A DNA stretch of 64,000 nucleotides from Sinorhizobium fredii (GTDB lineage: Bacteria > Pseudomonadota > Alphaproteobacteria > Rhizobiales > Rhizobiaceae), in contig NZ_CP024310.1 of the NCBI RefSeq assembly GCF_002944405.1, forward strand, positions 1,302,001 through 1,366,000, given 5' to 3'. Each line of letters starts with the position of its first letter. The stretch's first letter is position 1. Shown piece by piece: positions 10,699-56,447 of this stretch. The notes under the pieces were generated by a model. The model searched no databases. It had not been told where the DNA came from and worked only from the letters and a program-made list of their open reading frames with translations. The translations under genes and the position numbers were made by a program.

Positions 10699-11349
10699 TT
10701 GAAAGCCATGCCGACTGAACTTGTAAAAATGGGTCCGGCCCTTTCCGGCGAGCACGCTGATGCGCCCTCCATTGCAGCGTTGCGCAAGCAGGCCGAGGGC
10801 TGCGAGCGTTGCGATCTCTACAAGCATGCGACGCAGCTCGTGTTTGGCGAGGGACCCGGCAAGGCCCGCGTCGTCCTTGTCGGCGAACAGCCCGGCGATC
10901 GCGAGGATCTGGCCGGGCGGCCCTTCGTCGGCCCGGCGGGACGTATTCTCGACGAGTGCCTGCATGAGGCAGGCATCGATCGCTCAAGCTGCTATCTCAC
11001 CAATGCCGTCAAGCATTTTAAGTTCGAGCAACGCGGCAAGCGCCGCCTGCATTCGCGGCCCAATGCGGGCGAGATCCAGCGCTGTTCCTGGTGGCTCGGC
11101 GCAGAGCTCGAGCAGCTGCGGCCCAAGGTCGTCGTCGCGCTGGGTGCAACGGCGCTTTCGTCGCTGCTCGGACGCCGCGCCGGCGTGATGAAAAACCGCG
11201 GCGACCTGGTCGCCACGCCCGCCGGATACCCGGTGCTCGTCACCATCCATCCCTCCTATCTTCTCAGAATTCAGAACAGGGACGACGCCGCGGCGGAACG
11301 CGCCCGCTTCGTGAAAGACCTCGCCCAAATCGCCGGCCACGTGGATTAG
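10699..11349 (+). CDS. udgX: UdgX-type uracil-DNA binding/glycosylase protein
   Basis: The 216-residue protein belongs to the family 4-like uracil-DNA glycosylases, with GEQPG at 62-66, an [Fe-S]-type cysteine set (Cys35 and Cys38 plus later cysteines) and a terminal HPSYLLR. It carries the loop KRRLH (114-118) that defines the UdgX subgroup. In UdgX the His of this loop forms a covalent bond with the deoxyribose after uracil excision, leaving the protein fixed to DNA. Translation may start at TTG 10699, with CGAGG upstream, or at ATG 10708. The EcfG-type promoter upstream makes it a stress-induced gene. It is convergent with the GST gene, with only four bases between the stops. Confidence 0.85.
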   Translation: MKAMPTELVKMGPALSGEHADAPSIAALRKQAEGCERCDLYKHATQLVFGEGPGKARVVLVGEQPGDREDLAGRPFVGPAGRILDECLHEAGIDRSSCYLTNAVKHFKFEQRGKRRLHSRPNAGEIQRCSWWLGAELEQLRPKVVVALGATALSSLLGRRAGVMKNRGDLVATPAGYPVLVTIHPSYLLRIQNRDDAAAERARFVKDLAQIAGHVD

Positions 11350-11353
11350 CAAC

Positions 11354-12076
11354 TCAGGACGGTCGGTCGAGTTCGGGATAGCGGCGGAAAATGCAGGACT
11401 CGTTGAAGGGCAAGCGCCTGTCGGAAGCCAGATAGCTCATGATCCGCGGTCGCGCCGCGACCGAATCATGCAGCGCAATCAGCGCCGGCACATGCTCTTC
11501 ATTGGCACGCATCGCGTTCGGAAACGCGTAGCGGAGCCCCTCGACCAGGTGGAACAGCGAAAGATCGACATAGCTCGGTCGCCCGCCGACGCTATGCTCC
11601 GGGCCTTCCGGATTTTGGGCGAGAACGCGTTCGAAATAGCCAAGATATTTCGGGAGCCGCTCGGATAGGAAGTTCTCCGCCCGCTTCGACGCTTGCGGTT
11701 TCTGCTCCTCGTAATAGAGCGACACGCCTATCGGATGGTGCGTGTCGTGGATTTCGGTAACGAGATCCGTCACCGTCAATTGCAGGCCGTTGGCAACGTG
11801 GCGCAGGCCCTCATCCTCGGGCGTCAGCCCCAGCCTCGGGCCGAGATAGAACAGGATATTGGCGACGTGGGAGATGAGCAGTTCGCCATCGACCAGAAAG
11901 GGGGGCGCGAAAGGGCTGGTGGCACCGCCAGCATCCTTCATCAGCTTCAGCATTGCATCTGTGCCGCCCGGCTGGCGCGCCGCATCTACATAGTCGGCGC
12001 CTGCGTCCTCCAACGCGAGCCGCACAAATTCGCCGCGGCCGGGAATTCCGTCCCAGTAATAGAGCGTGAATGCCAT
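11354..12076 (-). CDS. Glutathione S-transferase family protein
   Basis: Started at the ATG at 12076, preceded by a GAGGG site, the product has 240 residues. It opens with FTLYYWDGIPGRGEFVRLAL, a thioredoxin-like GST N-domain with the catalytic tyrosine region. ISHVANILFYL (about 70-80) and an all-helical C-domain containing PSYVDLSLFHLVEGL follow. The pattern is of the sigma/alpha-like GSTs of proteobacteria. The open frame continues upstream without a stop into the remains of a DUF3175 gene, but the ribosome site and the GST N-terminus fix the start. It is probably the last gene of the stress operon beginning at 12631. Confidence 0.85.
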   Translation of the reverse strand: MAFTLYYWDGIPGRGEFVRLALEDAGADYVDAARQPGGTDAMLKLMKDAGGATSPFAPPFLVDGELLISHVANILFYLGPRLGLTPEDEGLRHVANGLQLTVTDLVTEIHDTHHPIGVSLYYEEQKPQASKRAENFLSERLPKYLGYFERVLAQNPEGPEHSVGGRPSYVDLSLFHLVEGLRYAFPNAMRANEEHVPALIALHDSVAARPRIMSYLASDRRLPFNESCIFRRYPELDRPS

Positions 12077-40933: not shown

Positions 40934-41800
40934 GTGGCGCCGAGAGCAAATTGGAAGGGCTATCTGAAGGTCGCCGAGGTCAGCTGCCCGGTCGCGCTCT
41001 ACACAGCGGCCTCGACCTCGGAACGAATTGCCTTTCACACCATCAACCGTGCCACCGGGCATCGCGTTCACCGGCAATTCGTCGACAGCGAGACCGGAAA
41101 GCCGGTCGAAAAGGACGATCAGGTCAAGGGCTATGAAGTCGGATCCGGCGACTACGTCGTGCTGGAGCCCGAGGAGATCGCGGCGGCCGTTCCGGAGAGC
41201 GACAAGACCCTGTCGATCTCGGCCTTTATCGCCTGCGGCGATATCGACAACGTCTATTTCGACAAGCCCTATTACCTTGCTCCGACCAAGAGCCATGCCG
41301 AAGACGCGTTCGCTCTGATCCGCGAGGGCATGCGCAAGAAGAACGTCGCGGCCATCGCCAGTGCAGTGCTGTTCCGGCGGGTGCGCACGCTTCTGATCCG
41401 CGCCTATGAGGACGGACTGATCGCAACGACCTTGAACTTCGACTACGAGGTCCGCTCGGCCCAAGAAGCGTTCGACGACGTGCCGGATCTGAAGATCGAG
41501 GGCGAGATGCTGAAGCTTGCCGAGCACATCATCAAGACCAAACGCGGAAAGTTCGACCCAGCCAAATTCGATGATCGCTATGAGGCGGCCCTTGCCGAGC
41601 TGGTCAAGGCGAAACTCGAGGGCAAGAAGATCGAGCCGCGCAAGGAGCCGAAGCGCGGAAAGGTCGTGGACCTGATGGAGGCATTGCGGCAGAGCGCCGG
41701 CGTTCCGGCCAAGAAGACAAAGGCGGCCACTCAAACCAAAAAGAAGGCGACCCGTGGCGCGAAGACGAAGGAAGCTTCGCCGCGTCGCAAGGCGGGCTGA
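40934..41800 (+). CDS. ku: Ku DNA-end-binding protein (first copy)
   Basis: The 288-residue protein is a bacterial Ku: APRANWKGYLKVAEVSCPVA, then IAFHTINRATGHRVHRQFVD, and the core DIDNVYFDKPYYLAP. The last 60 residues are Lys/Arg-rich (KKTKAATQTKKKATRGAKTK), a typical DNA-binding tail. Ku forms a ring on double-strand ends and recruits LigD. The start is a GTG. It is followed after three bases by ligD, so they form an operon under an EcfG-type promoter, consistent with stress-inducible NHEJ in Sinorhizobium. Confidence 0.95.
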   Translation: MAPRANWKGYLKVAEVSCPVALYTAASTSERIAFHTINRATGHRVHRQFVDSETGKPVEKDDQVKGYEVGSGDYVVLEPEEIAAAVPESDKTLSISAFIACGDIDNVYFDKPYYLAPTKSHAEDAFALIREGMRKKNVAAIASAVLFRRVRTLLIRAYEDGLIATTLNFDYEVRSAQEAFDDVPDLKIEGEMLKLAEHIIKTKRGKFDPAKFDDRYEAALAELVKAKLEGKKIEPRKEPKRGKVVDLMEALRQSAGVPAKKTKAATQTKKKATRGAKTKEASPRRKAG

Positions 41801-41803
41801 CCC

Positions 41804-43819
41804 ATGGGCCTCGAAACCTATCGGGAAAAGCGCGACTTCGCCTCGACACCCGAACCGAAGGGGGGCAAAGCGCGTCGATCCGGCAACAGTTTCGTTGTCC
41901 AGAAGCACGACGCCACGCGGCTGCATTACGACTTCCGGCTGGAGATGGACGGGGTTTTGAAGAGCTGGGCCGTCACTAAGGGTCCGAGCCTCGTTCCCGG
42001 CGAGAAGCGCCTTGCCGTTCACGTCGAGGACCACCCTCTCGAATACGGAGATTTCGAAGGCACGATCCCGAAAGGCGAATATGGCGGCGGTACCGTCATC
42101 CTGTGGGATCGCGGCACGTGGACGCCGATCGGCGATGCCCGGCGGGGCTACGCGAAAGGCCATCTCGACTTCGAGCTCAGCGGCGAAAAGCTCGGCGGCC
42201 GCTGGCATCTGGTTCGGATGGCCGGCAAGCCGCGCGAGAAACGGGAAAACTGGCTGCTGATCAAAGGCGACGACGAGGCGGCGCGATCGGAGCAAGACCC
42301 CGATATTCTCGAGGAGCGGCCGGAGTCGGTTCTGACCGGCCGCGAGATCAAGGATGTTGCCGGCGAAGAGCCGGGCTGGTCGTCGAAGACCGGCCGGATA
42401 CGCAAGCGGGCTCGCGGCAGGAAAACCGCCGCTTCACCAGGGCAGGAGCCGGAAGCGGCTTCGAACGTCCCAGATCCCGCGAAGTTCAAGGGCGCCAAGC
42501 GCGCTCCTTTGCCGGACTTCGTCGAGCCCTCATTGGCGACCCTCGTCGCCTCCGCGCCGGCCGGCGAACGCTGGCTCCACGAAATCAAGTTCGATGGCTA
42601 CCGGTTGCAGGCGCGGATCGAAGCCGGGCGCACCAAGCTTCTCACCCGTGGCGGGCTGGACTGGACGAAAAGGTTCGGCAAGGCGCTGGTGTCGGCATTG
42701 CAGGCGCTACCGGTCGGAACGGCCTTGATCGACGGCGAGGTCGTTGTCGAAACGGGCTCCGGGGCCTCCGACTTTTCCGGATTGCAGGCCGACTTGAGCG
42801 AGGGTCGCAGCGATCGTTTCCGCTTCTATGTCTTCGACCTGCTCTATCTCGACGGCTACGACTTGCGCGCTCTGCCCCTGGTCAAACGCAAGGAGCTGCT
42901 CGGCCAGCTGATCAGCGAAGGCGATGGCCTCATCCGCTTCAGCAGCCATTTCGAGGAGGAAGGCAGCCTGGTGCTGCGTCATGCCTGCAGGCTGAGCCTC
43001 GAAGGCATCGTCTCGAAGCAGCGCGATGCGCCCTATCGTGCGGGACGGAACAAAAGCTGGGTGAAATCCAAGTGCTCGGCGCGTCAGGAGTTCGTCGTCG
43101 CCGGCTACGTGCCGTCGACCACGTCGCGCAAGGCGATCGGCTCACTCGTGCTCGGCGTCTATCAAGGCGGCAAGCTCCATCATGTGGGCCGCGTTGGAAC
43201 AGGGTTCACCGTCGCCGTTGCGGAGGAGCTCTTCAAGAGGTTGGACCGTTTGCGGACGCCCGAGAGCCCGTTCGCGGCGCGGCTTGCGGCGGAAGATGCG
43301 CGCCAGGTCCGATATGTCAGGCCGGAGCTCGTTGCCGAGGTCGAGTTCAGGGCCTGGACCGCCGACGGCCTTCTCCGCCACGCTTCGTTCAGGGGATTGC
43401 GAGAGGATAAACCCGCCCGCGACATCGTGCGCGAAACGCCGAAGTCCGCGGCAGTTGCGCCCAAGGCTCCGCGTCGGACCGTGAAACTCACCCACCCCGA
43501 CCGGTTCTACTGGCCGGACGAGGGTGTCACCAAAGAGGGGCTCGCCGATTATTACTCCGAAGTCTGGCGCTTTGTCGGCCCCCATATCGTCGGGCGCCCG
43601 CTCGCTTTGGTCAGATGCCCCAATGGGATCACCGGGGAGACGTTCTTCCAGAAGCATGCCTGGAAGGGGCTGAACCCCAATATCGTGCTCGTCAACGATC
43701 CGAAGGACCCGCCCGACGAACAGCTGTTGAGCATCAGGGATCTCGATGGCCTGATGGGGCTAGTCCAGTCCGCGGTTCTCGAAATCCATCCTTGGGGCTC
43801 GACGGTCGCCGATTGGTAA
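41804..43819 (+). CDS. ligD: LigD: phosphoesterase and ligase domains, polymerase domain cut by an in-frame stop
   Basis: The frame encodes 671 residues. Residues 1-190 are the 3'-phosphoesterase domain (FVVQKHDATRLHYDFRLEMD). Residues about 230-520 are the ATP-dependent ligase with Lys262 in LHEIKFDGYR and the OB domain. From about 560 the polymerase/primase domain begins (KLTHPDRFYWPDEGVTKEGL, VRCPNGITGETFFQKHAW, VLEIHPWGSTVAD). A TAA at 43817-43819 ends it. The downstream frame carries on in register as the rest of the polymerase domain. Without the stop the protein would be 850 residues, the normal LigD length. The phosphoesterase and ligase domains may still function alone. Confidence 0.9.
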   Translation: MGLETYREKRDFASTPEPKGGKARRSGNSFVVQKHDATRLHYDFRLEMDGVLKSWAVTKGPSLVPGEKRLAVHVEDHPLEYGDFEGTIPKGEYGGGTVILWDRGTWTPIGDARRGYAKGHLDFELSGEKLGGRWHLVRMAGKPREKRENWLLIKGDDEAARSEQDPDILEERPESVLTGREIKDVAGEEPGWSSKTGRIRKRARGRKTAASPGQEPEAASNVPDPAKFKGAKRAPLPDFVEPSLATLVASAPAGERWLHEIKFDGYRLQARIEAGRTKLLTRGGLDWTKRFGKALVSALQALPVGTALIDGEVVVETGSGASDFSGLQADLSEGRSDRFRFYVFDLLYLDGYDLRALPLVKRKELLGQLISEGDGLIRFSSHFEEEGSLVLRHACRLSLEGIVSKQRDAPYRAGRNKSWVKSKCSARQEFVVAGYVPSTTSRKAIGSLVLGVYQGGKLHHVGRVGTGFTVAVAEELFKRLDRLRTPESPFAARLAAEDARQVRYVRPELVAEVEFRAWTADGLLRHASFRGLREDKPARDIVRETPKSAAVAPKAPRRTVKLTHPDRFYWPDEGVTKEGLADYYSEVWRFVGPHIVGRPLALVRCPNGITGETFFQKHAWKGLNPNIVLVNDPKDPPDEQLLSIRDLDGLMGLVQSAVLEIHPWGSTVADW

Positions 43820-43837
43820 AGACCGGACACGATCATA

Positions 43838-44356
43838 ATGGATCTCGATCCCGGCGAGGACGTGCCGTTCGAAGCGGTGATCGAAGCTGCGCTCGAGACC
43901 GCAGGCCGCCTGAAGGCGGCCGGCCTTGTTCCCTTCGTCAAGACATCCGGCGGCAAGGGGCTTCACGTGGTGGCGCCGTTGAAGCCCAAGGCGGAGTGGC
44001 CGGCCGTCAAGGCCTTCACCAAGTTGGTTGCCGATGCGATGGCCTCCGACAGTCCCGACCGGTTCGTTTCGACCATCAGCAAATCCAAGCGCCGCGGCAA
44101 GATCCTGGTCGACTATCTGAGAAACCAGCGCGGCGCGACCGCGGTGGCCCCCTATTCGACGCGAGCGCGGCCGGGCGCCGCCGTCTCGATGCCCCTCTCC
44201 TGGGACGAATTGGCTCCCAGCATCGGACCGGCCTATTTCACGGTGGAGAACACGCCGACGCGGCTGGCGTCGCTGCACGCCGACCCATGGGCGGATTTTC
44301 GCGCGGCCGCCGTTCCGCTCAAGGAGGCGAAGGCCGGGCGAAGGAGGGCCGCGTAA
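43838..44356 (+). CDS. ligD: C-terminal LigD polymerase-domain fragment after the in-frame stop
   Basis: This frame is in register with the preceding one, six codons after its TAA. It encodes 172 residues beginning MDLDPGEDVPFEAVIEAALE, where the DLD triplet is the metal-binding DxD of the LigD polymerase domain, followed by FVKTSGGKGLHVVAPL and KSKRRGKILVDYLRNQRGAT. The sequence is intact to its natural stop. No good ribosome site precedes the ATG at 43838, so translation would need reinitiation or readthrough. Alone it lacks the N-terminal half of the polymerase fold. It could be a fresh mutation, a sequencing error, or a split enzyme; the first two are more likely. Confidence 0.75.
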   Translation: MDLDPGEDVPFEAVIEAALETAGRLKAAGLVPFVKTSGGKGLHVVAPLKPKAEWPAVKAFTKLVADAMASDSPDRFVSTISKSKRRGKILVDYLRNQRGATAVAPYSTRARPGAAVSMPLSWDELAPSIGPAYFTVENTPTRLASLHADPWADFRAAAVPLKEAKAGRRRAA

Positions 44357-44397
44357 GGCTGTACTCAGAACGGACCCTTTCAGGAAGCGGTGAGGCA

Positions 44398-44604
44398 ATG
44401 CCGTCGCATCTGATAAAAAGGACAGACTACGACGCCGAGACGCGAACGCTCTCGGTCTGGCTCCTGACCACCGAAAAGCGTTATGACTATGAGGACGTGC
44501 CTCCCGAAACTTATGCGGCCTTCAAGCGGGCCTTTTCGAAGGGCCGCTTCTTCAACGCGCATATCCGCGATCGCTTCAAGTATCGCGTCTCGATGCCGGA
44601 CTGA
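44398..44604 (+). CDS. KTSC domain protein
   Basis: The 68-residue protein matches the KTSC family: a short beta-rich N-terminus (LIKRTDYDAETRTLSVWLL), then YDYEDVPPETYAAFKRAF and the conserved SKGRFFNAHIRDRFKYRV. Family members are small, sometimes fused to lysyl-tRNA synthetase-like or DNA-related proteins, and function is unknown. A GAGG site precedes the ATG. It lies 41 bases after the LigD fragment, pointing in the same direction, and is convergent with the second ku gene, so it sits inside the NHEJ cluster. Confidence 0.8.
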   Translation: MPSHLIKRTDYDAETRTLSVWLLTTEKRYDYEDVPPETYAAFKRAFSKGRFFNAHIRDRFKYRVSMPD

Positions 44605-44621
44605 CACCTTGATGCTTGGAG

Positions 44622-45431
44622 TTAACTCTTCGTCTTTTTCTTCTTTTCCGAACTGAGGCTCTTGCGAAGCGCGTCCATGATATTGACCACGTTGCTGGGT
44701 CGCTCCTCTTCCTCAGCCTTTGCCTTGGCCGGCCGCTTCCGGCCCTTCTTTTTGGCGGAAATGATGTCCAGGAGTCGCGCCTGAACGGGATCGCTCACCA
44801 TAGCGGAATCCCAGGGCTTGCTGCGTTCTTCGATCAGCTTCGTCACGAGGCGCATCAGTTCGGGATCGTTATCGCTGTCATCAATGTTGCGGAAGTACTC
44901 CTCGGGTTTCCGCACCTCGTCGCCATAGCGCAGCGTCCAAAGAACGATCCCCTTCCCTCTCGGTTCGAGCATAACGGCGCGCTCGCGGCGATACATGACA
45001 AGCCGCGAAATCCCGACCGTCCCGGTTGAGGCCATCGCGTCGCGGATGACTGAAAAGGCCTCCTCACCGACGGGATCGTCGGGAACGAGATAGTGCGGCT
45101 TGTCGTACCATATCCAGCGAATGCTGTCGGCCTCCACGAACATGTCGATGTCGATGGTGCGCGTGCTTTCCAGCCCGACCGCTTCGAGTTCCTCGTCCTC
45201 CAGAAGCACGAAATCGTCCTCGCCACGTTCATAGCCTTTGACTTCGTCATCTTCGTCGACAGCTTTTCCGCTCACCGCATCGACATACTGGCTGACGACG
45301 CGATTGTTGGTCTTCCGGTTGAGCGTGTGGAAGCGGACCTTCTCGTTCTCGGTCGTCGCCGGCGTCATTGCCACCGGACAGGTGACGAGTGACAGTTTCA
45401 GATAGCCTTTCCAGAATGAGCGGGGTGCCAT
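44622..45431 (-). CDS. ku: Ku DNA-end-binding protein (second copy)
   Basis: The 269-residue protein is a second Ku with the same core order: APRSFWKGYLKLSLVTCPVA, then VRFHTLNRKTNNRVVSQYVD, and IRWIWYDKPHYLVPDDPVGE. It differs throughout from the first copy and has a shorter Lys-rich tail (GRKRPAKAKAEEEERPSN, then SEKKKKTKS). A conserved NVVNIMDALRKSL segment near the end corresponds to the LigD/end-binding extension in the first. Two dissimilar Ku proteins near one LigD suggest a heterodimer, as known for the stress-inducible pair of Sinorhizobium meliloti. An exact EcfG-type promoter lies 38 bases upstream. Confidence 0.95.
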   Translation of the reverse strand: MAPRSFWKGYLKLSLVTCPVAMTPATTENEKVRFHTLNRKTNNRVVSQYVDAVSGKAVDEDDEVKGYERGEDDFVLLEDEELEAVGLESTRTIDIDMFVEADSIRWIWYDKPHYLVPDDPVGEEAFSVIRDAMASTGTVGISRLVMYRRERAVMLEPRGKGIVLWTLRYGDEVRKPEEYFRNIDDSDNDPELMRLVTKLIEERSKPWDSAMVSDPVQARLLDIISAKKKGRKRPAKAKAEEEERPSNVVNIMDALRKSLSSEKKKKTKS

Positions 45432-45586: not shown

Positions 45587-45790
45587 CTATCGGTCTCTCA
45601 GCCTTTCAGCCAAGAGATTCGGGTCTCTGACGCCTTCCTGATAGAGCGCGACCAGCCTCCTTGCGAGCGTTTCGGCCTCCTCGGTGTCACTCCTCAGCCT
45701 TGTCCGGGCAAGTTCGGTTTCGAACACGCCTTGCAGCATACTGATCTCGCTTGGTCGGATAACGCAGTCAAAGTCGCGGAACGGATACAT
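45587..45790 (-). CDS. Small conserved hypothetical protein (67 residues)
   Basis: The ATG at 45790 follows AGGAGG at eight bases. The protein is helical and charged (SEISMLQGVFETELARTRLR, then ETLARRLVALYQEGVRDP). It resembles short rhizobial proteins with an ETELA...LA..LV..YQ.G pattern but no named family was recognised. It stands alone between the second ku gene and the large fusion gene. Confidence 0.65.
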   Translation of the reverse strand: MYPFRDFDCVIRPSEISMLQGVFETELARTRLRSDTEEAETLARRLVALYQEGVRDPNLLAERLRDR

Positions 45791-45970
45791 GGCGCGGCCT
45801 CCTAGGATGGGGCGAAAGCGCGATGATCTCCCAGCCAGTGGCGCCCTTGCTAATAGCCGCTGATACTACGCAGCATGCGCCTCAAGTGAGACCGCAGCAA
45901 GGGCACCTTCTCGCCTGTCCTTCGCTCCTTATGAGCGAAGGCCGTCTCTATAAACCTGAACCCGGTAATC

Positions 45971-48940
45971 CTACTCCTTGGCAGCAGGGGCCAGCAGACC
46001 GGCAGACCTTAGAAGTTGAATCTGCTTCAACGCGTTCTGCGCAAGCAGTGACCGGTAGCGCTCGACGATCCGCGCTTTGTGAGCCTCGTCGGACACTGTT
46101 TCGAGCGATCCGAGGATCGCGGCTATCTTTTCGCTGGCCTCCCGCAACTGGACGAGAAGACCCTTGTCGTTCGCAACTCGGTCAAGGACGGAGCGCGTAA
46201 CAAGCCCAATGCCAGAGGGGCTGCTTGCACCTTGCGATACATAGCCATCGGGCAGGTCACCCTTGAGGTTCGTGACCGAGAGCAATCGTATCGAGTCGAT
46301 GATCTGGTCGACGGCTTGCTTCGCGCCGGCGACGCGCGTCGGATGGTCGGTGTCCGCTGCCGCGTGCGGAAGGAGTTCAAGCTTATCGGCATGCTTCGGG
46401 AGAAGCGAGAGATAGGGTTTCATCGGGCCGCTCGGGCCGTCCGACGACTTGAAGATGTCGGCATCGATCGCCGCATGCCTGACCTTGCCGGATGTCAGGG
46501 CGTCGTCCAGGTCTGTCACGTTCACGAGCTCGCCGCGATCGTAGTTGAGCAGAACGGCCCTGTCGTTCAGAGCGGACAGGACTTCGCGATCGACGATCCC
46601 GGCATTGGAGAATGTCCCGGTGGCCGGATCCTGTTTTCCGAGGCCGAGATGGACCGACAAGACGTCCGAGCCACGCGCGGCCTCCGCCGGAGTAGCGGCG
46701 TATTCATAGCCTTCCGCGATGATGTTGTCGCGATGCGCAGGCCGGGCGTAGACGACCACATCCATGTGGAACGCCTTGGCAAGACGTGCGAGTTCCCTGC
46801 CTATGTTGCCGTAGCCGAGGATCGCGATCCTCTTTCCCTCAAGCTTCTCGGTCGGATATTCGGCCAGGTTCTTGCCCGTATCGAAGTCGTCGCCAACGAC
46901 GCGGGCATGCAATTCTTCCACCGGCAGATCGGGCAGAACCTTGAGAAGCGCCTTCATGGCCATCTGCGCGGTAGCCCGGCTATTGATGCCCGGCGTGTTC
47001 ATCAGCGGGGCCTCGCCGCCTTCGCCGTTCGGACCGCCCCAGGAAGCGGAACCCATGTTTCCGGTGCCCGTGCCGATACGGACGCCGCCAAGGCGGAACT
47101 TCGCAGCCTGGGGGATGAATGTTGCGGCGGCGATCACCGCATCGTACTGCCCCTCGCCCGCTTCAGCGAGGATCTCGTCGGCGGTGCTGAGGTGGGGTCG
47201 GTAGTAGAAGTGAATCTTGCCGTCGTCGGCCGTGCTTGAACCGTTCGCGGATTTTTCGTGGAACACGCCGCCTTTTTCGTGGATGTATGCGGCCAGTTCG
47301 CTGTGATCGAGACGGCCCTCAGCATCGAAGCGGAGGCCGATCGCATCCGCGATCAACACCTTGAAAGTGCCCTCGCGCACCGATGCGGCACCGGCGCCGG
47401 CAGATTCGGCGTAGTCAACGCGGCTGCCTCTCTTCTCGAGCTCTTCTTCGATGACGACGATCTTGGCCCTGAGATAGGCGTATTTGAGATTGTCGAGCAG
47501 AGCGGTGACGTCGGCAGCGTCCCGAATGCCGCCGATCCAGGCGCGATAATCCCCCGGCGTGCCGGGGAACGCGTTCACATAACGCGCGGCATCCAGGCCC
47601 TTTTCGTGAACACCGTTCGGATGGCTAATTCCCTCATAACCCAGGATCTGCTTCGACCGCGCGATGATGCGCTGATGCAGGTCCGACGAGGAGATGCTGC
47701 CGTCATTGACCTTCAGCAGCGTTACCGCCGCGCCGCGGCGATCCTCTTCCTCCACGACGAGACTGAACAGCGGGTTGCGGTCCACCCATTCGTTGACGAG
47801 CTTGCGGTTCTTTGCCGAGCGCCTGTTCAATTCGCTGACGGACCCGACGCGCCGTTCGGTCTGCAAGAGCCCGAAGGTGGTCTCGGCGAATGCCAGGGCG
47901 CTATAGGTGTTGATGACGCCGCCGAGCATCCTGTCTTCCTCGGCATCGTAGAACGGACCGGAATCGACCGACCGCTTGCTGCTGAACGGCTGCCGGGGAT
48001 TGATCGGCGGCGCAATCTTGAGCTGCCTCGGGATTGCCCAGGACGGATTGCTCTGGTTGCGCTCGATCAATGCCAGAGCCGCCGGTGTGAAGGATGCGAC
48101 GAAGTAGCCAGACACGCCGCCGATTGCTTTCTGGAACGGCATGAACAGGCAGCATTTGGCCATTACCGCCCGAACGACATCGGGCTCCCAAGGCATCGCC
48201 CCCAGCATGGAGGTCGCGTCGAAGACGGCATGACGGTTTTCAGGGTCGCCGTCCAACCAGGCCAGGAGCTCGGTGATCTCCTCGTTGGTGTATGAATTGG
48301 CACCGGTCGTTTCGTGTCCCACGCCAATGAAGATCGAAACGCCGAGTTCTGCGAGCGCGCTTGCCGAGGGGATCTCCCCCTCGCGCTTCGCAAAGTGAAT
48401 CCTGTTTTCGTCGCCCTTTTCCGCGAAGCGATGCATCTCTATGAGCTGGGTTGCCCAGGATTGCCGGAAGAAGCCCGCTGCACCGGCGCGGTCGCTCTCG
48501 GGGCGCGGGGTGTCGACATACACCCGCTGGCCCGCGTCATTTGCGTTGAGCAGGTGCTGCACGCACACGGTATAGCCGCTGTGGCCGCCGCCCAAACCGA
48601 CTGCAATCCTGTTCGACTTGGGGAATTCAAAATAGCGATGGATCGCCCGCATCATATCGAGCAGAATTTTGTCCGCCGGGTAACCGCGATGCATGCTGCG
48701 GGAAAGCTCGGCGGTCGTAAACGCGCCGATATCCTTGCCGGTGTCATCGTATTTCCGGTAGGTGCTCTCTATCCATTTGTCGAACTCATAGCGCCGCAGC
48801 CGGCTGTCGACCTCATCCTTTGTCGCATCGGTTATCGGACCGACCCCGAAGAACGGATTCGTCGGCAGCGAAGGAGCGCCGCCTTCGGTGCGTTTCATTG
48901 CGTCGAGGCGATGCGCGACAAGGTCTGAATCGGAAATCAT
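45971..48940 (-). CDS. Class V aminotransferase (SerC-like) fused to a D-2-hydroxyacid dehydrogenase (SerA-like)
   Basis: The 989-residue protein has two enzyme halves. Residues about 25-500 are a fold-type I PLP aminotransferase of the phosphoserine type, with Asp241 (AVFDATSMLG) and the probable PLP Lys271 (MPFQKAIGGVSGYF). Residues about 525-885 are a D-2-hydroxyacid dehydrogenase: GYGNIG at 709-714, Arg802 in DRGELV and His859 in LLPHAA. The glutamate of the usual Arg-Glu-His triad is not obvious (IDADIF). The residue after the second beta strand is not acidic (VYARP), which hints at NADP(H). A helical tail ends the protein. A GAGGTAGAA site precedes the ATG. Substrates are inferred only as serine-pathway-like keto or amino acids. 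Confidence 0.8.
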   Translation of the reverse strand: MISDSDLVAHRLDAMKRTEGGAPSLPTNPFFGVGPITDATKDEVDSRLRRYEFDKWIESTYRKYDDTGKDIGAFTTAELSRSMHRGYPADKILLDMMRAIHRYFEFPKSNRIAVGLGGGHSGYTVCVQHLLNANDAGQRVYVDTPRPESDRAGAAGFFRQSWATQLIEMHRFAEKGDENRIHFAKREGEIPSASALAELGVSIFIGVGHETTGANSYTNEEITELLAWLDGDPENRHAVFDATSMLGAMPWEPDVVRAVMAKCCLFMPFQKAIGGVSGYFVASFTPAALALIERNQSNPSWAIPRQLKIAPPINPRQPFSSKRSVDSGPFYDAEEDRMLGGVINTYSALAFAETTFGLLQTERRVGSVSELNRRSAKNRKLVNEWVDRNPLFSLVVEEEDRRGAAVTLLKVNDGSISSSDLHQRIIARSKQILGYEGISHPNGVHEKGLDAARYVNAFPGTPGDYRAWIGGIRDAADVTALLDNLKYAYLRAKIVVIEEELEKRGSRVDYAESAGAGAASVREGTFKVLIADAIGLRFDAEGRLDHSELAAYIHEKGGVFHEKSANGSSTADDGKIHFYYRPHLSTADEILAEAGEGQYDAVIAAATFIPQAAKFRLGGVRIGTGTGNMGSASWGGPNGEGGEAPLMNTPGINSRATAQMAMKALLKVLPDLPVEELHARVVGDDFDTGKNLAEYPTEKLEGKRIAILGYGNIGRELARLAKAFHMDVVVYARPAHRDNIIAEGYEYAATPAEAARGSDVLSVHLGLGKQDPATGTFSNAGIVDREVLSALNDRAVLLNYDRGELVNVTDLDDALTSGKVRHAAIDADIFKSSDGPSGPMKPYLSLLPKHADKLELLPHAAADTDHPTRVAGAKQAVDQIIDSIRLLSVTNLKGDLPDGYVSQGASSPSGIGLVTRSVLDRVANDKGLLVQLREASEKIAAILGSLETVSDEAHKARIVERYRSLLAQNALKQIQLLRSAGLLAPAAKE

Positions 48941-49158
48941 TTCTACCTCTGTTCATTCTGGGCAGCAGGTAATCGCTCCCCGTCATTGGTGATCGCCGAA
49001 ACTGACGCTGCGGCCGAACGTGCAAGTCTCGCTCCCGGATCGGGCGATTGCTCAGGCGACAATGTTGGACAATTCAAAAATCCACGCAGCACGAATTCCG
49101 AACGTATTGCCATCGAATTGCGACATGAGACGCTGGATACGATCGAACGCATGCTTTT

Positions 49159-49196
49159 CTTAAGAGCGGCCGATCAGAAGATCGGCCGCTCTTAAG
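49159..49196. terminator. Perfect 17-base hairpin downstream of the BCCT gene
   Basis: Arms 49159-49175 and 49180-49196 pair perfectly around a four-base loop. T-rich flanks are weak. It lies after the BCCT stop (49210) on the minus strand, so it probably terminates that gene. Confidence 0.6.
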
Positions 49197-49209
49197 ATTA
49201 TCAGCATCG

Positions 49210-50787
49210 TTATTGTGCGGCTTCAGGCGCAAGTGCGGCGGCTTCGCCAGCGGTAGCGGCAGTCGGCACCCTCCGCGGCGACCGCCCCTCTTCCAGTTCG
49301 TCGAGGAGCGAGTGCCACAGCGAGATGCAGAGCCCGACCATGACGATCAGGAACGGGGCCGCCGCGATGATCGAGGCCGTCTGCAAACCCTGCAATCCGC
49401 CCATCATGAGCAGGACCGAGGCCGAGGCGCCCGCCAGCACGCCCCAAAGCACGACGACACTCGGGGGCGGCTCGAGCGTGCCGTTCGACGAGAGCATTCC
49501 CATCACCACCGCGCCTGCATCGGCGCCGGAGATGAAGAAGATCGCAACCAGGAAAATGGCGACCAGGGACGTCAGCCAGGCAAAGGGATATTGCGCCAGC
49601 AAAGCAAAGAGCGAGACTGCGGCACCCTGGTTGTAGACCGCGTCGACGATGCCGCCGGCGCCGAAGAGCTCGGAATGCAGCGCGGTTCCACCCATGATCG
49701 TGAACCAGACGAAGGTGACGCCGCTCGGGATCAGCAGAACGCCGATCACGAATTCGCGGATCGTGCGGCCACGCGAGATGCGGGCGATGAACACGCCGAC
49801 GAAGGGCGCCCAGGAAACCCACCATGCCCAATAGAAGATCGTCCAGCTGCCGAGCCACTTGCCGTCGCTGAAGGCCGCGGTGCGGAACGACATGGTTACG
49901 AGGTCACTCAGATAGAAGCCGAGCGATTCCGTGAAGGTGTTGAAGATGAAGATCGTCGGACCGATGCAGAGCAGGAATATCAACAGCAGCATCGCGATGA
50001 TCATATTCATGTTGGAGAGGAACTGGATGCCCTTGCCCACACCCGACACCGCCGAGAGGATGAACAGCACCGACATGACGCCGATGATGGACAGCGCGAT
50101 CGCGTTGGAAGTCCCGGTCCCCCATAGGAAGTCCATGCCGCTGTTGATCTGCTGGGCACCGAGGCCGAGCGAAGTGGCCGTGCCGAACAGCGTCGCGATG
50201 ATCGCTAGCACGTCGATTGCCTTGCCGATCGGCCCGCTTGCGGCCTTGCCGAGAAGCGGCGTGAAGGCAGACGAAATCAGGTTCGACTTGCCCTTGCGGA
50301 ACGTGAAATAGGCGATCGTCAGGCCGACCACGGCATAGATGGCCCAGGGGTGAAGCGCCCAGTGGAAATAGGAGTACTTCATGGCGAGAAGCGCCGCCTC
50401 GAGGCTCTTCGGCTCCGCCTGCCCGTGCGGCGGGCTTGAAAAATGAAAGATCGGTTCTGCAACGCCCCAGAACATCAGGCCGATGCCCATGCCGACGCTG
50501 AACATCATGCAGATCCAGGATGCGGTGCGGAATTCCGGCCGCTCGTCGTCCTGTCCGAGCCGGATCTTGCCCAGGCGGCTGACGGCAAGAAAAAGCGCGA
50601 AAATCAGGAAGCCCGCTGACGAGACGACGAAGCCCCACCCGAAATCGTCGATGACCGTGTTGAGGACCACTTTCGAGACCGAGGACAGGCTGTCGGGGAA
50701 CACCGTCCCCCAACCGACAAATCCCAAAATGATGGTGATCGACGGCCAGAAGACGGCCGGATCGACCTGAGGTCTTGATCCTTGCAT
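49210..50787 (-). CDS. BCCT-family betaine/choline/carnitine transporter
   Basis: The 525-residue protein has 12 transmembrane helices and BCCT signatures: FSVGMGIGLMFWGVAEPIFHF (about 96-116), FHWALHPWAIYAVVGL (about 140-155) and the tryptophan-rich WTIFYWAWWVSWAPFVGVFIA segment (about 318-338). The G-M-G-I-G motif and Trp box of betaine binding are present. N- and C-terminal extensions are short, unlike osmotically activated BetP, so it may act more as a nutrient importer. An AGGAGGAG site precedes the ATG. It lies 141 bases after mtkB on the same strand, with a short GC-rich hairpin (50852-50870) between, and could bring methylated amines to the serine-cycle enzymes. Confidence 0.9.
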   Translation of the reverse strand: MQGSRPQVDPAVFWPSITIILGFVGWGTVFPDSLSSVSKVVLNTVIDDFGWGFVVSSAGFLIFALFLAVSRLGKIRLGQDDERPEFRTASWICMMFSVGMGIGLMFWGVAEPIFHFSSPPHGQAEPKSLEAALLAMKYSYFHWALHPWAIYAVVGLTIAYFTFRKGKSNLISSAFTPLLGKAASGPIGKAIDVLAIIATLFGTATSLGLGAQQINSGMDFLWGTGTSNAIALSIIGVMSVLFILSAVSGVGKGIQFLSNMNMIIAMLLLIFLLCIGPTIFIFNTFTESLGFYLSDLVTMSFRTAAFSDGKWLGSWTIFYWAWWVSWAPFVGVFIARISRGRTIREFVIGVLLIPSGVTFVWFTIMGGTALHSELFGAGGIVDAVYNQGAAVSLFALLAQYPFAWLTSLVAIFLVAIFFISGADAGAVVMGMLSSNGTLEPPPSVVVLWGVLAGASASVLLMMGGLQGLQTASIIAAAPFLIVMVGLCISLWHSLLDELEEGRSPRRVPTAATAGEAAALAPEAAQ

Positions 50788-50928: not shown

Positions 50929-51828
50929 TCAGGCTGCCTTGTTCATCGCCGACAACACGTCGGCGACGCTCTCGCCGAAGGAGGACGGAGTCGGCACGAT
51001 CGTGACACCCGCCCCCTTCAGGATCTCGACCTTTTCCTGCGCCGATTCCCCGAAGGCGGAGATGATCGCGCCCGCATGACCCATGCGCCGGCCTTTCGGC
51101 GCCGAAAGCCCTGCGATATAGGCGATCAGCGGCTTCTTCATCTGGTCGCGCGCCCACAGAGCGGCCTCCGCCTCCTGCGGGCCGCCGATCTCGCCGATCA
51201 TCAGCACGGCGTCCGTTTCCGAATCCTGTTCGAACAACTCCAGCATGTCCTTGAAGGACGAGCCGTTGACCGGGTCGCCGCCAATGCCGACCGATGTCGA
51301 CACACCGATGCCGAGGGCCTTCATCTGGCTCGCCGCCTCGTAGCCGAGCGTCCCCGAGCGGCCGACAATGCCGATGCGGCCGGGCAGGTAGATCGAGCCC
51401 GGCATGATCCCCATCATCGCCTCGCCAGGCGTGATCATGCCGGCGCAGTTCGGCCCGATCAGGGTCATGCGATCCTCAAAGCGATAGCGCCTCATGTATC
51501 GCTTGACCCTGATCATGTCCTGGGAGGGAATGCCGTCGGTGATGCAGACGCAGAGCCGGATGCCGGCATCCGCCGCCTCCATGATCGAGTCGGCGGCAAA
51601 GGGCGGCGGCACGAAGACGATCGAGGCATCGGCGCCGGTTTCCTGGACGGCGCCTTTCACCGTGTTGAAGACCGGCATGCCGAGATGCGTCTGCCCGCCC
51701 TTGCCGGGCGTGACGCCGCCGACCACGTTGGTGCCGTAACGCTTCATGTCTTCGGCATGGAAGCTGCCGATTTTACCGGTGAAGCCCTGCACGATGACGC
51801 GCGTGTTCTTGTCGAGGAGAATGGACAT
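50929..51828 (-). CDS. mtkB: Malate-CoA ligase (malate thiokinase) alpha subunit
   Basis: The 299-residue protein is of the succinyl-CoA synthetase alpha type: an N-terminal CoA-binding Rossmann motif (VIVQGFTGKIGSFHAEDMKR) and GPNCAGMITPGE, then the active-site phosphohistidine His251 in GRRMGHAGAIISAF. Neighbouring mcl and sga genes identify it as the malate-activating form of the serine cycle rather than the TCA enzyme. It begins 14 bases after mtkA. The reaction uses ATP and CoA to make malyl-CoA, which Mcl then splits. Start is the ATG at 51828. Confidence 0.85.
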   Translation of the reverse strand: MSILLDKNTRVIVQGFTGKIGSFHAEDMKRYGTNVVGGVTPGKGGQTHLGMPVFNTVKGAVQETGADASIVFVPPPFAADSIMEAADAGIRLCVCITDGIPSQDMIRVKRYMRRYRFEDRMTLIGPNCAGMITPGEAMMGIMPGSIYLPGRIGIVGRSGTLGYEAASQMKALGIGVSTSVGIGGDPVNGSSFKDMLELFEQDSETDAVLMIGEIGGPQEAEAALWARDQMKKPLIAYIAGLSAPKGRRMGHAGAIISAFGESAQEKVEILKGAGVTIVPTPSSFGESVADVLSAMNKAA

Positions 51829-51842: not shown

Positions 51843-53027
51843 TCAAGCAGCTTTGTTGGCGGTGTAGGAACGCCAGGCGGCGACCGCCTTCTCGGCAGCC
51901 TCGGCCAGCGTTTCCGCGACGATGATGTCCTCGCCGGACTCGGCGAGGATGCGCCGGCCCTCTTCCATGTTGGTGCCGGAAAGGCGCACGACGAGCGGAA
52001 CCGGGACACCGACTTCCTTCAGCGCCTTGATCACGCCCTCCGCCACCCAATCGCAGCGGTTGATGCCGGCGAAGATGTTGACGAGGATCGTTTCAACGTT
52101 CTTGTCGTGCAGCACGGCGCGGAAGGATTTCGCAACGCGGTCGGGCGAGGCGCCGCCGCCGATGTCGAGAAAATTCGCGGGCTCGCCGCCGGCAATCTTG
52201 ATCATGTCCATGGTCGCCATGGCCAGCCCCGCGCCGTTGATGATGCAGCCGATATTGCCGTCGAGACCGACATAGGAGAGGCCGCGGTCGGACGCGTAGG
52301 TCTCGCGCGGATCTTCCTGGCTCTTGTCGCGCATTTCGGCGATATGCGGCCGGCGGAACAGCGCGTTCTCGTCGAAGCTCATCTTGGCGTCGAGCGCCAC
52401 GAGATCACCGCGGCGGGTCACGACCAGCGGATTGATCTCAAGCATCGCGGCGTCATAGTCGACGAAGGCGCGATAGCAGCCCATGAGCGTCTGCGTGGCG
52501 CGGCCGATCAGGGCATTGTCGATGCCGAGCCCGAAGGCAATCTCGCGGGCCTGGAAATCCTGCATGCCGACGCCCGGATCGACGGTGGCGCGGATGATGG
52601 AATCGGGCTCCGCCTCGGCGATCTCCTCGATCTCCATGCCGCCCGAGGACGAGGCGACGATCATGATGCGCTCGGATTTCCGGTCGAGGACGAAGCCGAG
52701 ATAGATCTCGCGCTCGATATCCATCGCCTCCTCGACGTAGAGGCGGCTGACCAGCTTGCCCTGCGCTCCGGTCTGGTGCGTCACCAGCTTGGCACCGAGC
52801 ATGGCATCGGCAGCCGCGACGATCTCGTGGTCGGACGAGCAGAGCTTGATACCGCCGGCCTTGCCGCGCGCCCCGGAATGGATTTGCGCCTTGACGACCC
52901 AGCGGTCGCCGCCGATCTCGCTTGCGCGATAGGCAGCCTGTTCGGGACTGTAGGCCAGCCCGCCCCGCGGAATGTGGATATGATAGCGGGAGAGAAGTTC
53001 CTTGGCCTGGTATTCGTGGATATCCAT
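51843..53027 (-). CDS. mtkA: Malate-CoA ligase (malate thiokinase) beta subunit
   Basis: The 394-residue protein has the succinyl-CoA synthetase beta layout: an ATP-grasp domain starting [20 protein letters not shown] with [19 protein letters not shown], then [20 protein letters not shown] and a CoA-ligase domain with [14 protein letters not shown] and [16 protein letters not shown]. It sits between mcl and mtkB with gaps of 12 and 14 bases, so one operon is clear. Assignment to malate rather than succinate rests on this context. Confidence 0.85.
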
Positions 53028-53039: not shown

Positions 53040-53981
53040 TCAGCGGCCGGCCGTGATGGCTTCATGGGTGGCGAGCACGTTGCGCGCCATGCGCTCGGAA
53101 GCGGCATCGATCATCTTTCCGTCGAGCGAGGCTGCACCTTTGCCCTCGCTCTCGGCGACCTTCAGCGCATCGATGATGCGGCGGGCGCGCTCGACCTCCT
53201 TCTCGGGAGGGGAAAAGATCTCGTTGGCAAGCGCGATCTGGCTTGGATGGATGGCCCACTTGCCCTCGATGCCAAGCGCAGCGGCACGGCGGGCCGCGGC
53301 CTTGTAGCCTTCCGGATCGGAGAAATCGCCGAAGGGACCGTCGATGGCGCGCAGGCCATAGGCGCGGCAAGCAACGGTCATCCGCGACAGGCCGAAGTGC
53401 CACTGGTCTCCCGGGTAGTCGGGATTGAGACCGCCGATATTGACCGTGCGGGCCTTGAGGCTGGCGGCATAGTCGGCAACGCCGAAATGTAGGGCTTCCA
53501 GCCGGCCGCCAAAGGAGGCGATGGCCTCGACATTGGCCATGCCGAGAGCCGTCTCGATCAGGGCCTCGAGACCGACACGGGTCTTGTAGCCCTTGGCGAT
53601 CTCGATCTGGTTGACCATCGCCTCGACCATGTAGAGGTCGGCGGGCACGCCGACCTTCGGCACCAGCAGCGTGTCGATCCTGTCGCCGGCCTGCTCCATG
53701 AGGTCGACGACGTCGCGGTACATGTAGTGCGTGTCCAGCCCGTTGATGCGCACCGAGATGGTCTTGCCACGGCCGCGCCAGTCGATCTCGTTCAGCGCTG
53801 CGACGATATTGGCGCGGGCCCGCTCCTTGTCCGGCGGGGCGACGGCATCCTCGATGTCGAGGAAGATGTAGTCGGCGCCGGAATTTGCGGCCTTCCCGAT
53901 CATTTCGGGGTTCGAGCCCGGAACGGCGAGTTCGCTGCGCTGCAGCCGCAACCGGCGGAGATGGTTTATCGTGTGGCTCAT
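53040..53981 (-). CDS. mcl: L-malyl-CoA/beta-methylmalyl-CoA lyase
   Basis: The 313-residue protein is a CitE-like lyase: RSELAVPGSNPEMIGKAANS, then ADYIFLDIEDAVAPPDKERA with acidic Mg-binding residues, and IETALGMANVEAIASFGGRL, ending with AIHPSQIALANEIFSP. The PGSNP motif near residue 20 is typical of malyl-CoA lyases. It splits malyl-CoA into acetyl-CoA and glyoxylate. The gene lies between sga and mtkA, so together they return glyoxylate to the serine cycle. A GGGAGGAGAGG site precedes the ATG. Confidence 0.9.
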   Translation of the reverse strand: MSHTINHLRRLRLQRSELAVPGSNPEMIGKAANSGADYIFLDIEDAVAPPDKERARANIVAALNEIDWRGRGKTISVRINGLDTHYMYRDVVDLMEQAGDRIDTLLVPKVGVPADLYMVEAMVNQIEIAKGYKTRVGLEALIETALGMANVEAIASFGGRLEALHFGVADYAASLKARTVNIGGLNPDYPGDQWHFGLSRMTVACRAYGLRAIDGPFGDFSDPEGYKAAARRAAALGIEGKWAIHPSQIALANEIFSPPEKEVERARRIIDALKVAESEGKGAASLDGKMIDAASERMARNVLATHEAITAGR

Positions 53982-54002: not shown

Positions 54003-55193
54003 TCAGGCTGCCTTGGCGGACGACGCGGTCGCGGCGGAACGGAACTGGCTGATCGCCGCACCCACACCCGCACCCGGCTCGATCTTCAGGCCGCAGTCGA
54101 GCAGCGTCAGTTCGGCGGCGGAAAGCGCGCCCAGAACCATGACCTCGTTCAGCGAGCCGAGATGGCCGATGCGGAAGACCTTGCCTGCCACCTTGCCGAG
54201 CCCGCTGCCGAGCGAGGTGTTATAGGTTTGGTAGGCGTGGCGGATGACCTCGACACCATCGATTCCTTCCGGCAGACGGATTGCCGAAACGGTGTCGGAA
54301 TGCCATTTCGGTTCGGTTGCGCAGAGCTTGAGCCCCCAGGCGGAGACCGCGGCGCGGACGCCATTGGCGAGATGATGATGGCGGGCGAAGATAGTCTCCA
54401 GGCCTTCTTCGAAGATCAGGTCGAGCGCCGCTCTGAGGCCGTGCAGCAGCTGTGTCGGCGGCGTATACGGAAAGTAGCCGGTGTCGTTGGTCTTGATCAT
54501 GTCCTCGAAGGAGAAGTAGCAGCGCATGTGACGCGCGGTCCTGGCGGCCTCGAGCGCCTTCTGGCTGACAGAGAGGAAACCGAGGCCAGCAGGCATCATG
54601 AACCCCTTCTGCGAACCGGACACGGCGCAGTCGACGCCCCATTCGTCCTGGCGAAAGTCGATCGAGCCGATCGACGAGACGCCATCGACGAAGAGCAGCG
54701 CCGGGTGGCCGCAGGCGTCGAGCGCGGCGCGCACGGCGGCGACATCCGAGGTGACGCCGGTCGCGGTTTCGTTATGGGTCACGAAGACGGCTTTGATCGT
54801 GTGGGCCTTGTCGGCGGCGAGCCGGTCGGCATAGAGCTCGACCGGCACGCCCGTGCCCCACTCCCGGTCGAGGCAATCAACCTCGAAACCGAGGCGTTCG
54901 GCCATGTCGACCCAGAGATGCGAGAACTGGCCGAAACGGCTCATCAGCACCCTGTCGCCGGGGGAGAGCACGTTGGTCATCGCCGCTTCCCAGGCGCCGG
55001 TGCCGGACGATGGATAGATGAAAACGCGGCCGCTCTGGTTCTTGAACACTCTCTTGATGTCGGCGAAGAGCGGCAGCGTGAGCTCCGGATAGCGAGGGGA
55101 CCGCATGTCCTCCATCGGCAGGTTCATCGCCTGGCGGACCTGCTCGGGAATGTTGGTGGGGCCTGGGATGAAGAGATGATTGTAGCCTGACAT
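54003..55193 (-). CDS. sga: Serine-glyoxylate aminotransferase
   Basis: The 396-residue protein is a class V aminotransferase with HLFIPGPTNIPEQVRQAMNL at the start, PSSGTGAWEAAMTNVLSPGD (about 61-80), Asp170 in LLFVDGVSSIGSIDF and the PLP lysine Lys196 in VSGSQKGFMMPAGLGF. It converts serine and glyoxylate to hydroxypyruvate and glycine. It is the first gene of the operon sga-mcl-mtkA-mtkB. The ATG at 55193 follows GGAGG; an earlier frame extension lacks protein character. The 188 bases upstream hold candidate operator repeats and end at the LuxR-type gene. Confidence 0.9.
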   Translation of the reverse strand: MSGYNHLFIPGPTNIPEQVRQAMNLPMEDMRSPRYPELTLPLFADIKRVFKNQSGRVFIYPSSGTGAWEAAMTNVLSPGDRVLMSRFGQFSHLWVDMAERLGFEVDCLDREWGTGVPVELYADRLAADKAHTIKAVFVTHNETATGVTSDVAAVRAALDACGHPALLFVDGVSSIGSIDFRQDEWGVDCAVSGSQKGFMMPAGLGFLSVSQKALEAARTARHMRCYFSFEDMIKTNDTGYFPYTPPTQLLHGLRAALDLIFEEGLETIFARHHHLANGVRAAVSAWGLKLCATEPKWHSDTVSAIRLPEGIDGVEVIRHAYQTYNTSLGSGLGKVAGKVFRIGHLGSLNEVMVLGALSAAELTLLDCGLKIEPGAGVGAAISQFRSAATASSAKAA

Positions 55194-55381: not shown

Positions 55382-56023
55382 TTACTCCGGGTTGCGCCGG
55401 CGTTCTTTTGTGTAGAGTGCTACGGCCATGGCGCGATTGCGCACCTCGAGCTTGTCGTAAAGGTTTTTGAGGTGGTATTTCACGGTATTCTCGGAGATGC
55501 CGGTTCGCGCGGCGATCTGGATATTGGTCCAGCCATTGGCCAGCATGCCGAGCAATTCGCTCTCGCGAGAGGTGAGCTGCTGAAAGGGCGTGTTGGAGAT
55601 TTTGGAGAGCACCGTATAGGGAATGCAGATCCGGCCCTTCATCACGGCGGTGAGCGTCGCGAACAGGATTTCCGGATCCTCGAACTGATAGCAAAGCCCG
55701 TTCACACCCAGCCTGATCGTCTCGTTGACGACGGCCGGATCACGAGTATCGGCGAATAGAACGATCCTCGGATCGAGTCCGAGCCGGCCGAGATCGGCGA
55801 GAACCTCGGGTGCCTCGGCATCGTCGAGCTGCCAGGAAAGCAGCACGCAATCCACTTCGGCGATGGCAAGCTTCTCGTAAAGCTCGGCCGATGTGCTCGC
55901 GGTGTCGGCGATGAAAAAGCGGGCATTCTCGGAAAACAATCCACGGAGGGCAGCAATGACGAGCGGATTGCGTTCCGCGATCAGAACACGCCCGACCGCC
56001 TCCTGCGGCACGGATGCAACCAT
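55382..56023 (-). CDS. LuxR-family regulator with degenerate receiver domain
   Basis: From the ATG at 56023 (GGGAGAG upstream) the product has 213 residues. Residues 10-125 have the receiver fold (GRVLIAERNPLVIAALRGLF), but the phosphoacceptor position is Ser63 in VDCVLLSWQL and the usual N-terminal acidic pair is ER. It therefore probably does not accept phosphate in the standard way. Residues about 145-205 are a LuxR helix-turn-helix (LTSRESELLGMLANGWTNIQ then ISENTVKYHLKNLYDKLEV). It lies 188 bases upstream of the serine-cycle operon on the same strand and is its likely regulator, perhaps acting through ligand or partner binding. Confidence 0.85.
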   Translation of the reverse strand: MVASVPQEAVGRVLIAERNPLVIAALRGLFSENARFFIADTASTSAELYEKLAIAEVDCVLLSWQLDDAEAPEVLADLGRLGLDPRIVLFADTRDPAVVNETIRLGVNGLCYQFEDPEILFATLTAVMKGRICIPYTVLSKISNTPFQQLTSRESELLGMLANGWTNIQIAARTGISENTVKYHLKNLYDKLEVRNRAMAVALYTKERRRNPE

Positions 56024-56273
56024 GCGTCTCTCCCGTTGACGCAGACCTGTTCGACTACTGCATGTCTCGTTCAATCGATCTCGATTTAAGGACAAAGACA
56101 TGCGGCAATTCCAAGTACTGCAGCGACCTTTGAGCGCCTGATAGGACGCGCGGCGCTGTATGGAACGTATCATTTGCGTCGGCGGCCGGGTCACCGCGAA
56201 ACGACGGAACATATTCAAATAGCCCGCTTTGCCTTTACTTGCCTGGGGGAGACGCTCCCCTACATGGGCAGGC

Positions 56274-56447
56274 ATGGACATTGAGGATAGTGCAGTCTCG
56301 GCGCGTAGGCTTGATCCGTCCGCACAGATGCAGCTTCAGGCACAGGATCCTGCGGTCATGGCCGAGGTTGCCCGCCTTCTCGCGGGCCGAACGCGTGACA
56401 TCCGCCTCAAGGGCGAGCTTCGTCGCCTGTTCCAGGAGCGCTCCTAG
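56274..56447 (+). pseudogene. N-terminal fragment of the GGDEF protein, cut by an amber codon
   Basis: From the ATG at 56274 an intact 57-codon frame reads DIEDSAVSARRLDPSAQMQL and later MAEVARLLAGRTRDIRLKGE, then LRRLFQERS and TAG at 56445-56447. The frame continues in register for ten codons into the ATG of the GGDEF protein. Together they would make a 421-residue membrane protein with a soluble N-terminus before the first helix, an arrangement common in rhizobial diguanylate cyclases. The TAG may have replaced TGG. On its own this fragment probably has no function. Confidence 0.65.

Follow-up and report, generated by a model that had tools for sequence, protein, structure and literature searches.

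The window analysed here, a stretch of 64,000 nucleotides from Sinorhizobium fredii, carries on its minus strand a single gene (45971..48940, stop codon included) for a protein of 989 amino acids with three modules. Residues 1-505 (47426..48940) form a class V (fold type I) aminotransferase (AT). Its PLP lysine, Lys271 (codon at 48128..48130), aligns with the lysine of the SerC SWQK motif. Residues 525-890 (46271..47368) form a D-2-hydroxyacid dehydrogenase (DH), whose NAD-binding domain scored 88.7 bits with PF02826 against a cut-off of 25.1 and includes the nucleotide-binding motif GYGNIG at residues 709-714 (46799..46816). The C-terminal helical tail (residues 910-989; 45974..46213) resembles those found on relatives that consist of the AT or the DH alone. 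In structure comparisons, the top match of the AT half was the phosphoserine aminotransferase (PSAT) 2fyf, 2 Z units above AGT, and the DH half matched phosphoglycerate dehydrogenase (PGDH) and glyoxylate/hydroxypyruvate reductases. A sequence-profile search at E 0.01 found no solved structure for the AT half. The initial annotation had described a PLP aminotransferase (Lys271) joined to a D-2-hydroxyacid dehydrogenase (GYGNIG 709-714, Arg802, His859) with a helical tail, and this description was borne out.

Five genes lie upstream of the fusion gene on the same strand. The nearest (49210..50787) encodes a BCCT-family (betaine/carnitine/choline) transporter, which was above the cut-off of PF02028 and slightly below that of the glycine-betaine model (635.7 bits; cut-off 650). 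It is followed by genes for the alpha subunit of a succinate/malate-CoA ligase (50929..51828; NF004230, 439.5 bits, cut-off 336), the beta subunit of malate-CoA ligase (51843..53027; NF010647, 726.8 bits, cut-off 604) and a CitE/HpcH-HpaI-type C-C lyase (53040..53981), probably a malyl-CoA lyase, which was above the cut-off of PF03328 and below that of every NCBIfam model. The fifth gene (54003..55190) encodes a glyoxylate aminotransferase of the SGAT/BhcA type. Its best PDB sequence match was the serine-glyoxylate aminotransferase 6pk1 (476 bits), and it scored 596.2 with the BhcA model, the cut-off of which is 650. A LuxR/NarL-type regulator gene with an uncertain start (55382..56281, minus strand; PF00196 above cut-off) lies beyond it.

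The gap from the transporter gene to the fusion gene contains a perfect 18-bp inverted repeat (49158..49197, minus strand), and an 80-nt stretch here folds at -44 kcal/mol (z -7.8). No T run follows the hairpin on the minus strand. Such a strong hairpin separates the fusion gene from the transporter gene, so their co-transcription is doubtful. In addition, we found no consensus promoter in 45700-49400. Therefore, we do not claim that these genes form one operon.

On the other side of the fusion gene, the translations of 40934-45431 resembled, by eye, two copies of Ku and a LigD, the proteins of bacterial end joining. One LigD-like frame ends at 43819 and another starts at 43838, which suggests that this gene may be interrupted.

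Distribution of the fusion and of its separate modules

The fusion query matched 695 proteins at E 0.001, and the 120 matches listed had 60-91% identity and covered 97-100% of its length. When each species was represented by one genome, relatives were encoded in 159 stretches of the collection, 80 of which were kept; most of them contained full-length fusions. Their hosts were Rhizobium, Sinorhizobium, Mesorhizobium, Shinella, Paracoccus, Kiloniella, Roseovarius, Aestuariivirga, SAR324 MAGs, a gammaproteobacterial MAG and others. The occurrence is patchy, and only three of the 385 genomes of the host's class, the source genome included, had the fusion. An assembly artefact or a frameshift at the junction was ruled out by the conservation of the whole fusion across many Alphaproteobacteria and the SAR324 and gammaproteobacterial MAGs, and the single chain proposed at first therefore stands. 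One MAG contig (L085) had two fusion matches in tandem, from 8001 and from 11000 onwards.

Separate versions of both halves also exist. Proteins among the listed matches of the AT-half query were mostly 460-870 residues long, although some of these 120 matches are partial records or extend into the DH. Many of them, 565-635 residues long, have the AT and lack the DH in BLAST comparisons with the fusion. A second BLAST match, to the helical tail (about residues 890-988 of the fusion), was found in many of these AT-without-DH forms. Similarly, the stand-alone proteins found with the DH-half query were mostly 450-497 residues long and consisted of the DH and the tail; some of the listed DH-half matches are shorter and some are partial fusions.

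We built FastTree trees from a family alignment with 52 fused, 27 AT and 16 DH rows. Stand-alone and fused forms were interleaved, with seven label changes by parsimony on the AT tree and eight on the DH tree. The trees have no outgroup, and we tentatively infer an ancestral fusion that was repeatedly split. Among whole genomes no stand-alone AT was found, as the matches in 3 of 385, 4 of 398 and 1 of 229 genomes were all in frames of at least 993 residues. Stand-alone AT genes were present on plasmid records, in one Ensifer adhaerens case and in two further E. adhaerens records. In the plasmid context of the Ensifer adhaerens case, the annotation showed no such dehydrogenase gene up to 12 kb away.

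Comparison of the two halves with SerC and SerA

The first reading of the two halves was as SerC and SerA, the PSAT and PGDH of the phosphorylated serine pathway, which would act here as a fused pair on 3-phosphohydroxypyruvate. Some observations fit this reading. Both halves have weak NCBIfam matches to these families, the AT half had a profile match to SerC (99.2%; 23% identity in the alignment), and its top structure match is a PSAT. Like SerC (TIGR01365; 2fyf), it has the class V fold. His84-Arg85, His120, Lys271 and Arg466 were invariant in all 79 AT rows of the family alignment, so the PLP lysine, the alpha-carboxylate arginine (Arg466) and the His-Arg pair of PSAT are all retained. We take this pair and a second arginine of SerC to be the phosphate-side residues.

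However, both halves are far under the cut-offs of the families. The AT half scored 52.5 bits with one PSAT model (cut-off 477) and 38.4 bits with the other (TIGR01365, cut-off 448.2), and the DH half scored 68 bits with the PGDH model (cut-off 454). The second arginine, found in a YR motif in alphaproteobacterial SerC, is lost. Its position (Val455) has V, I or L in 79 of 79 family rows, whereas 20 of 24 alphaproteobacterial SerC rows have R and two have K. The AT half also differs from SerC by an insertion ahead of Arg466. In the DH half, I-A-A-A-T is aligned with I-R-S-A-T of the genome's own SerA. The arginine of this RSAT motif, presumably phosphate-binding, is replaced by A, V, T or C in 68 of 68 DH rows. 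Since these phosphate-side arginines are absent, we would not expect either half to deal with phosphorylated substrates in the manner of SerC or SerA. In addition, the genome has its own SerC (392 residues, L102) and SerA (531 residues, L001), the genes of which adjoin on C1, and thus the fusion is not needed for the phosphorylated pathway. Together with the Arg at the acidic NAD position, these results make a fused PSAT-PGDH very improbable. Membership of the PSAT and PGDH families was ruled out by the model scores and the residues, and the identification with SerC and SerA was not upheld. The retained His-Arg pair of the AT could nevertheless, judging from the residues, reflect an acidic substrate, which would count against a reaction with serine.

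The DH half shares the fold, the GxGNIG motif and the catalytic Arg and His with SerA and the glyoxylate/hydroxypyruvate reductases (PF02826). Arg733, Arg802, Asp826, Asp828 and His859 were invariant in 68 of 68 DH rows. Thus, of the catalytic Arg-Glu-His set, Arg802 and His859 are present. The DH rows have no conserved Glu at its usual EP position, as noted in the initial annotation, and the invariant Asp826 and Asp828 are nearby. The two sets of active-site residues look intact in the family alignment. Another difference is that an arginine occupies the place of the acidic NAD residue. Where the second strand ends, an arginine is taken as a mark of NADP preference. The invariant Arg733 suggests, at the level of sequence, that NADP(H) is the cofactor, in agreement with the earlier proposal.

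It had also been stated that the two enzymes are separate in known serine pathways. This does not hold throughout, as oomycetes have a bifunctional PGDH-PSAT (Ps142688 / Pr80380; PMC2705460). Like the fusion, that protein joins a SerA-superfamily dehydrogenase and a SerC-superfamily aminotransferase in one chain. Its domain order is the opposite, with PGDH N-terminal and PSAT C-terminal, whereas the Sinorhizobium fusion starts with the AT (1-505) and continues with the DH (525-890). The fusion here further differs in the helical tail that it has in common with the split forms and in the absence of phosphate-side arginines from both halves. Searches of the open-licence PMC literature gave no description of a bacterial fusion of this AT-DH kind.

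Gene context and possible function

The neighbours of the fusion in other genomes were taken from codon-based gene calls. In the Sinorhizobium loci, the BCCT gene and the serine-cycle-type gene set adjoin the fusion, whole or in part. Among MAGs labelled Deltaproteobacteria, L069 has the lyase and both ligase genes divergently beside the fusion and L075 has the lyase. The genes downstream of the fusion in these two match those of the SAR324-labelled L072 and L081. In L072, we found no lyase or ligase gene upstream beside the fusion and no ligase match in the genome. One gene 3′ of the fusion in the SAR324-type MAGs (L069 6269-7579, L072 4412-5830; 436-472 residues) had no supported Pfam or NCBIfam match, and the idea that it is a kinase, based on its appearance by eye, was dropped for this reason. 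Genes of methyl-group metabolism were also observed. Sarcosine oxidase subunits and FolD are encoded at the L012 locus, an FAD/GcvT-type protein and FolD at L016, and an FAD/GcvT-type protein at L090; both FAD/GcvT-type proteins were below the model cut-offs. GbdR-like regulators, all below the GbdR cut-off, were found in Sinorhizobium, Kiloniella (L056) and G443 (L178).

A panel gene was present at 19 of the 80 fusion loci and absent from 61, compared with 2 of 38 control stretches of 19 kb taken from fusion-carrying genomes (P = 0.019). Outside Sinorhizobium the enrichment was not significant (8/66 vs 2/38, P = 0.32). At the genome level, 26 of the 48 genomes with the fusion had malate-CoA ligase above the cut-off, compared with 17 of 385 in the host's class (Fisher test ignoring kinship, P = 1e-17) and 13 of 151 in its family (Fisher test ignoring kinship, P = 1e-10); both comparison sets contain the source genome and perhaps further carriers of the fusion. 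Several of the 48 genomes are incomplete MAGs. Seven are labelled as non-Alphaproteobacteria (L065, L069, L071, L072, L075, L080, L081) and two only as Proteobacteria (L084, L085), and 24 of 39 had the ligase when these nine were left out.

Malyl-CoA lyase and malate-CoA ligase, as neighbours and through this co-occurrence, could suggest a glycine/glyoxylate enzyme, the AT of which would interconvert glyoxylate and glycine and the DH of which would reduce glyoxylate to glycolate, so that glyoxylate from malyl-CoA cleavage is kept in check. The glyoxylate/hydroxypyruvate reductases among the structure matches of the DH agree with this. However, of the 26 ligase-carrying fusion genomes, 24 had a close SGAT/BhcA-type enzyme (E <1e-100) as well; among the remaining 22 fusion genomes it was present in five, at about E 1e-100 or better. 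Most ligase carriers thus have a separate glyoxylate aminotransferase, and therefore the AT half is usually not the sole candidate for serine-glyoxylate transamination there. This also weakened the idea that the AT half stands in for a missing SGAT.

The position of glycerate kinase is a second argument against a glyoxylate enzyme. In L040, a glycerate kinase frame (PF13660 and PF05161 above cut-off, NCBIfam glycerate kinase models below) starts 3 nt past the stop codon of the fusion. The stand-alone DH gene lies directly before or overlaps a glycerate kinase gene in three of six plasmid contexts (L103, L104, L105), from Paracoccus and Aminobacter (L104/L105, which share one near-identical cluster) and from Pseudochrobactrum; in the other three no glycerate kinase is beside it. 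Of the six further stand-alone DH stretches (L164-L169), a listing of loci with at least two panel hits included one, L167, in which glycerate kinase was about 7 kb from the DH. On balance, we consider the glycine/glyoxylate reading unlikely.

We did not find a conserved neighbourhood common to all lineages. Many fusion genes sit among unrelated genes, and in a scan of 80 flanking proteins (79 cut out manually among 118 listed, and L069:6269-7576) each Pfam family was matched by three at most. Such variety would be expected if the fusion were a transaminase-reductase for another amino acid, freed by flanking amidases or peptidases or brought in by transporters, with the serine-cycle genes as neighbours in some lineages only. 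Proline-iminopeptidase-type hydrolases with ABC transporters, an M20 amidohydrolase with an amino-acid ABC transporter and, elsewhere, an amidase were indeed observed. The adjacency to glycerate kinase and the co-occurrence with malate-CoA ligase speak against this explanation, which we regard as rather unlikely.

The context of the fusion points to C1, serine and glycerate metabolism, and a shared 2-oxo acid most economically links the two modules. Hydroxypyruvate is the best candidate because of the D-2-hydroxyacid chemistry, the NADP-type pocket and the absence of the SerC/SerA phosphate arginines, because glycerate kinase is beside one fusion and some of the split DH genes, and because of the association with serine-cycle and methyl-amine genes. 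We therefore propose, with a probability of roughly 0.45, a bifunctional transaminase-reductase that converts L-serine through hydroxypyruvate to D-glycerate. The substrate, direction, cofactor and channelling of the enzyme are all inferred. Several results count against this proposal: 61 of the 80 fusion loci lack a panel gene and the enrichment outside Sinorhizobium is not significant, most ligase carriers have a separate SGAT/BhcA-type enzyme, L072 has neither lyase nor ligase, three plasmid contexts of the stand-alone DH have no glycerate kinase, and the hairpin makes co-transcription with the transporter gene doubtful. The N-terminal PLP module would take the amino group off an L-amino acid, most likely L-serine, to give hydroxypyruvate, and the C-terminal module would reduce this with NADPH to D-glycerate, which glycerate kinase could then feed into central metabolism. 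In Sinorhizobium, the serine used by the fusion would be that formed from betaine-derived glycine and methylene-tetrahydrofolate, and the adjoining malate-CoA ligase and malyl-CoA lyase genes would supply glyoxylate. The serine-related two-step route of the initial annotation thus survives as a possibility, and not as a SerC/SerA route.

The same two-step chemistry would be that of SgaA and HprA of the serine cycle, the genes of which are neighbours in Methylobacterium extorquens. These are two separate proteins, whereas the AT of the fusion comes from another class V branch and the window additionally carries a separate gene of the SGAT/BhcA type.

If the serine reading is true, one protein would fill the step from serine to glycerate in bacteria that consume betaine, choline or sarcosine, and the database names phosphoglycerate dehydrogenase, phosphoserine aminotransferase and NAD(P)-dependent oxidoreductase would be corrected. 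Because the two modules occur in nature both joined and apart, they offer a ready test for channelling gained by fusion. A wider scheme is tentative and, in our opinion, somewhat doubtful. One polypeptide would cover the part of the serine cycle from serine to D-glycerate, pass hydroxypyruvate between its sites and, in rhizobia and marine bacteria, aid the assimilation of methyl carbon of amines such as glycine betaine. The AT half would found a class V family missed by the Pfam copy used, and the three-module form would have come apart or been rejoined on several occasions, while the tail retained by the pieces might serve for docking. According to a 2025 study (PMC12478193), serine-cycle proteins were raised in a marine bacterium on N-osmolytes including glycine betaine, and a serine-ammonia lyase provided an alternative fate for serine.

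Two minor observations concern the plasmids. The cluster at 810-11682 is near-identical in L104 and L105, which are Paracoccus versutus and Aminobacter plasmids, and comprises RraA, Ldh, Fe-ADH, ALDH, a TRAP transporter, a class II aldolase, the stand-alone DH and glycerate kinase, which suggests recent transfer. Another stand-alone DH relative (L106, 8977-10386) is on the Agrobacterium larrymoorei Ti plasmid, where several FAD oxidoreductase genes adjoin it.
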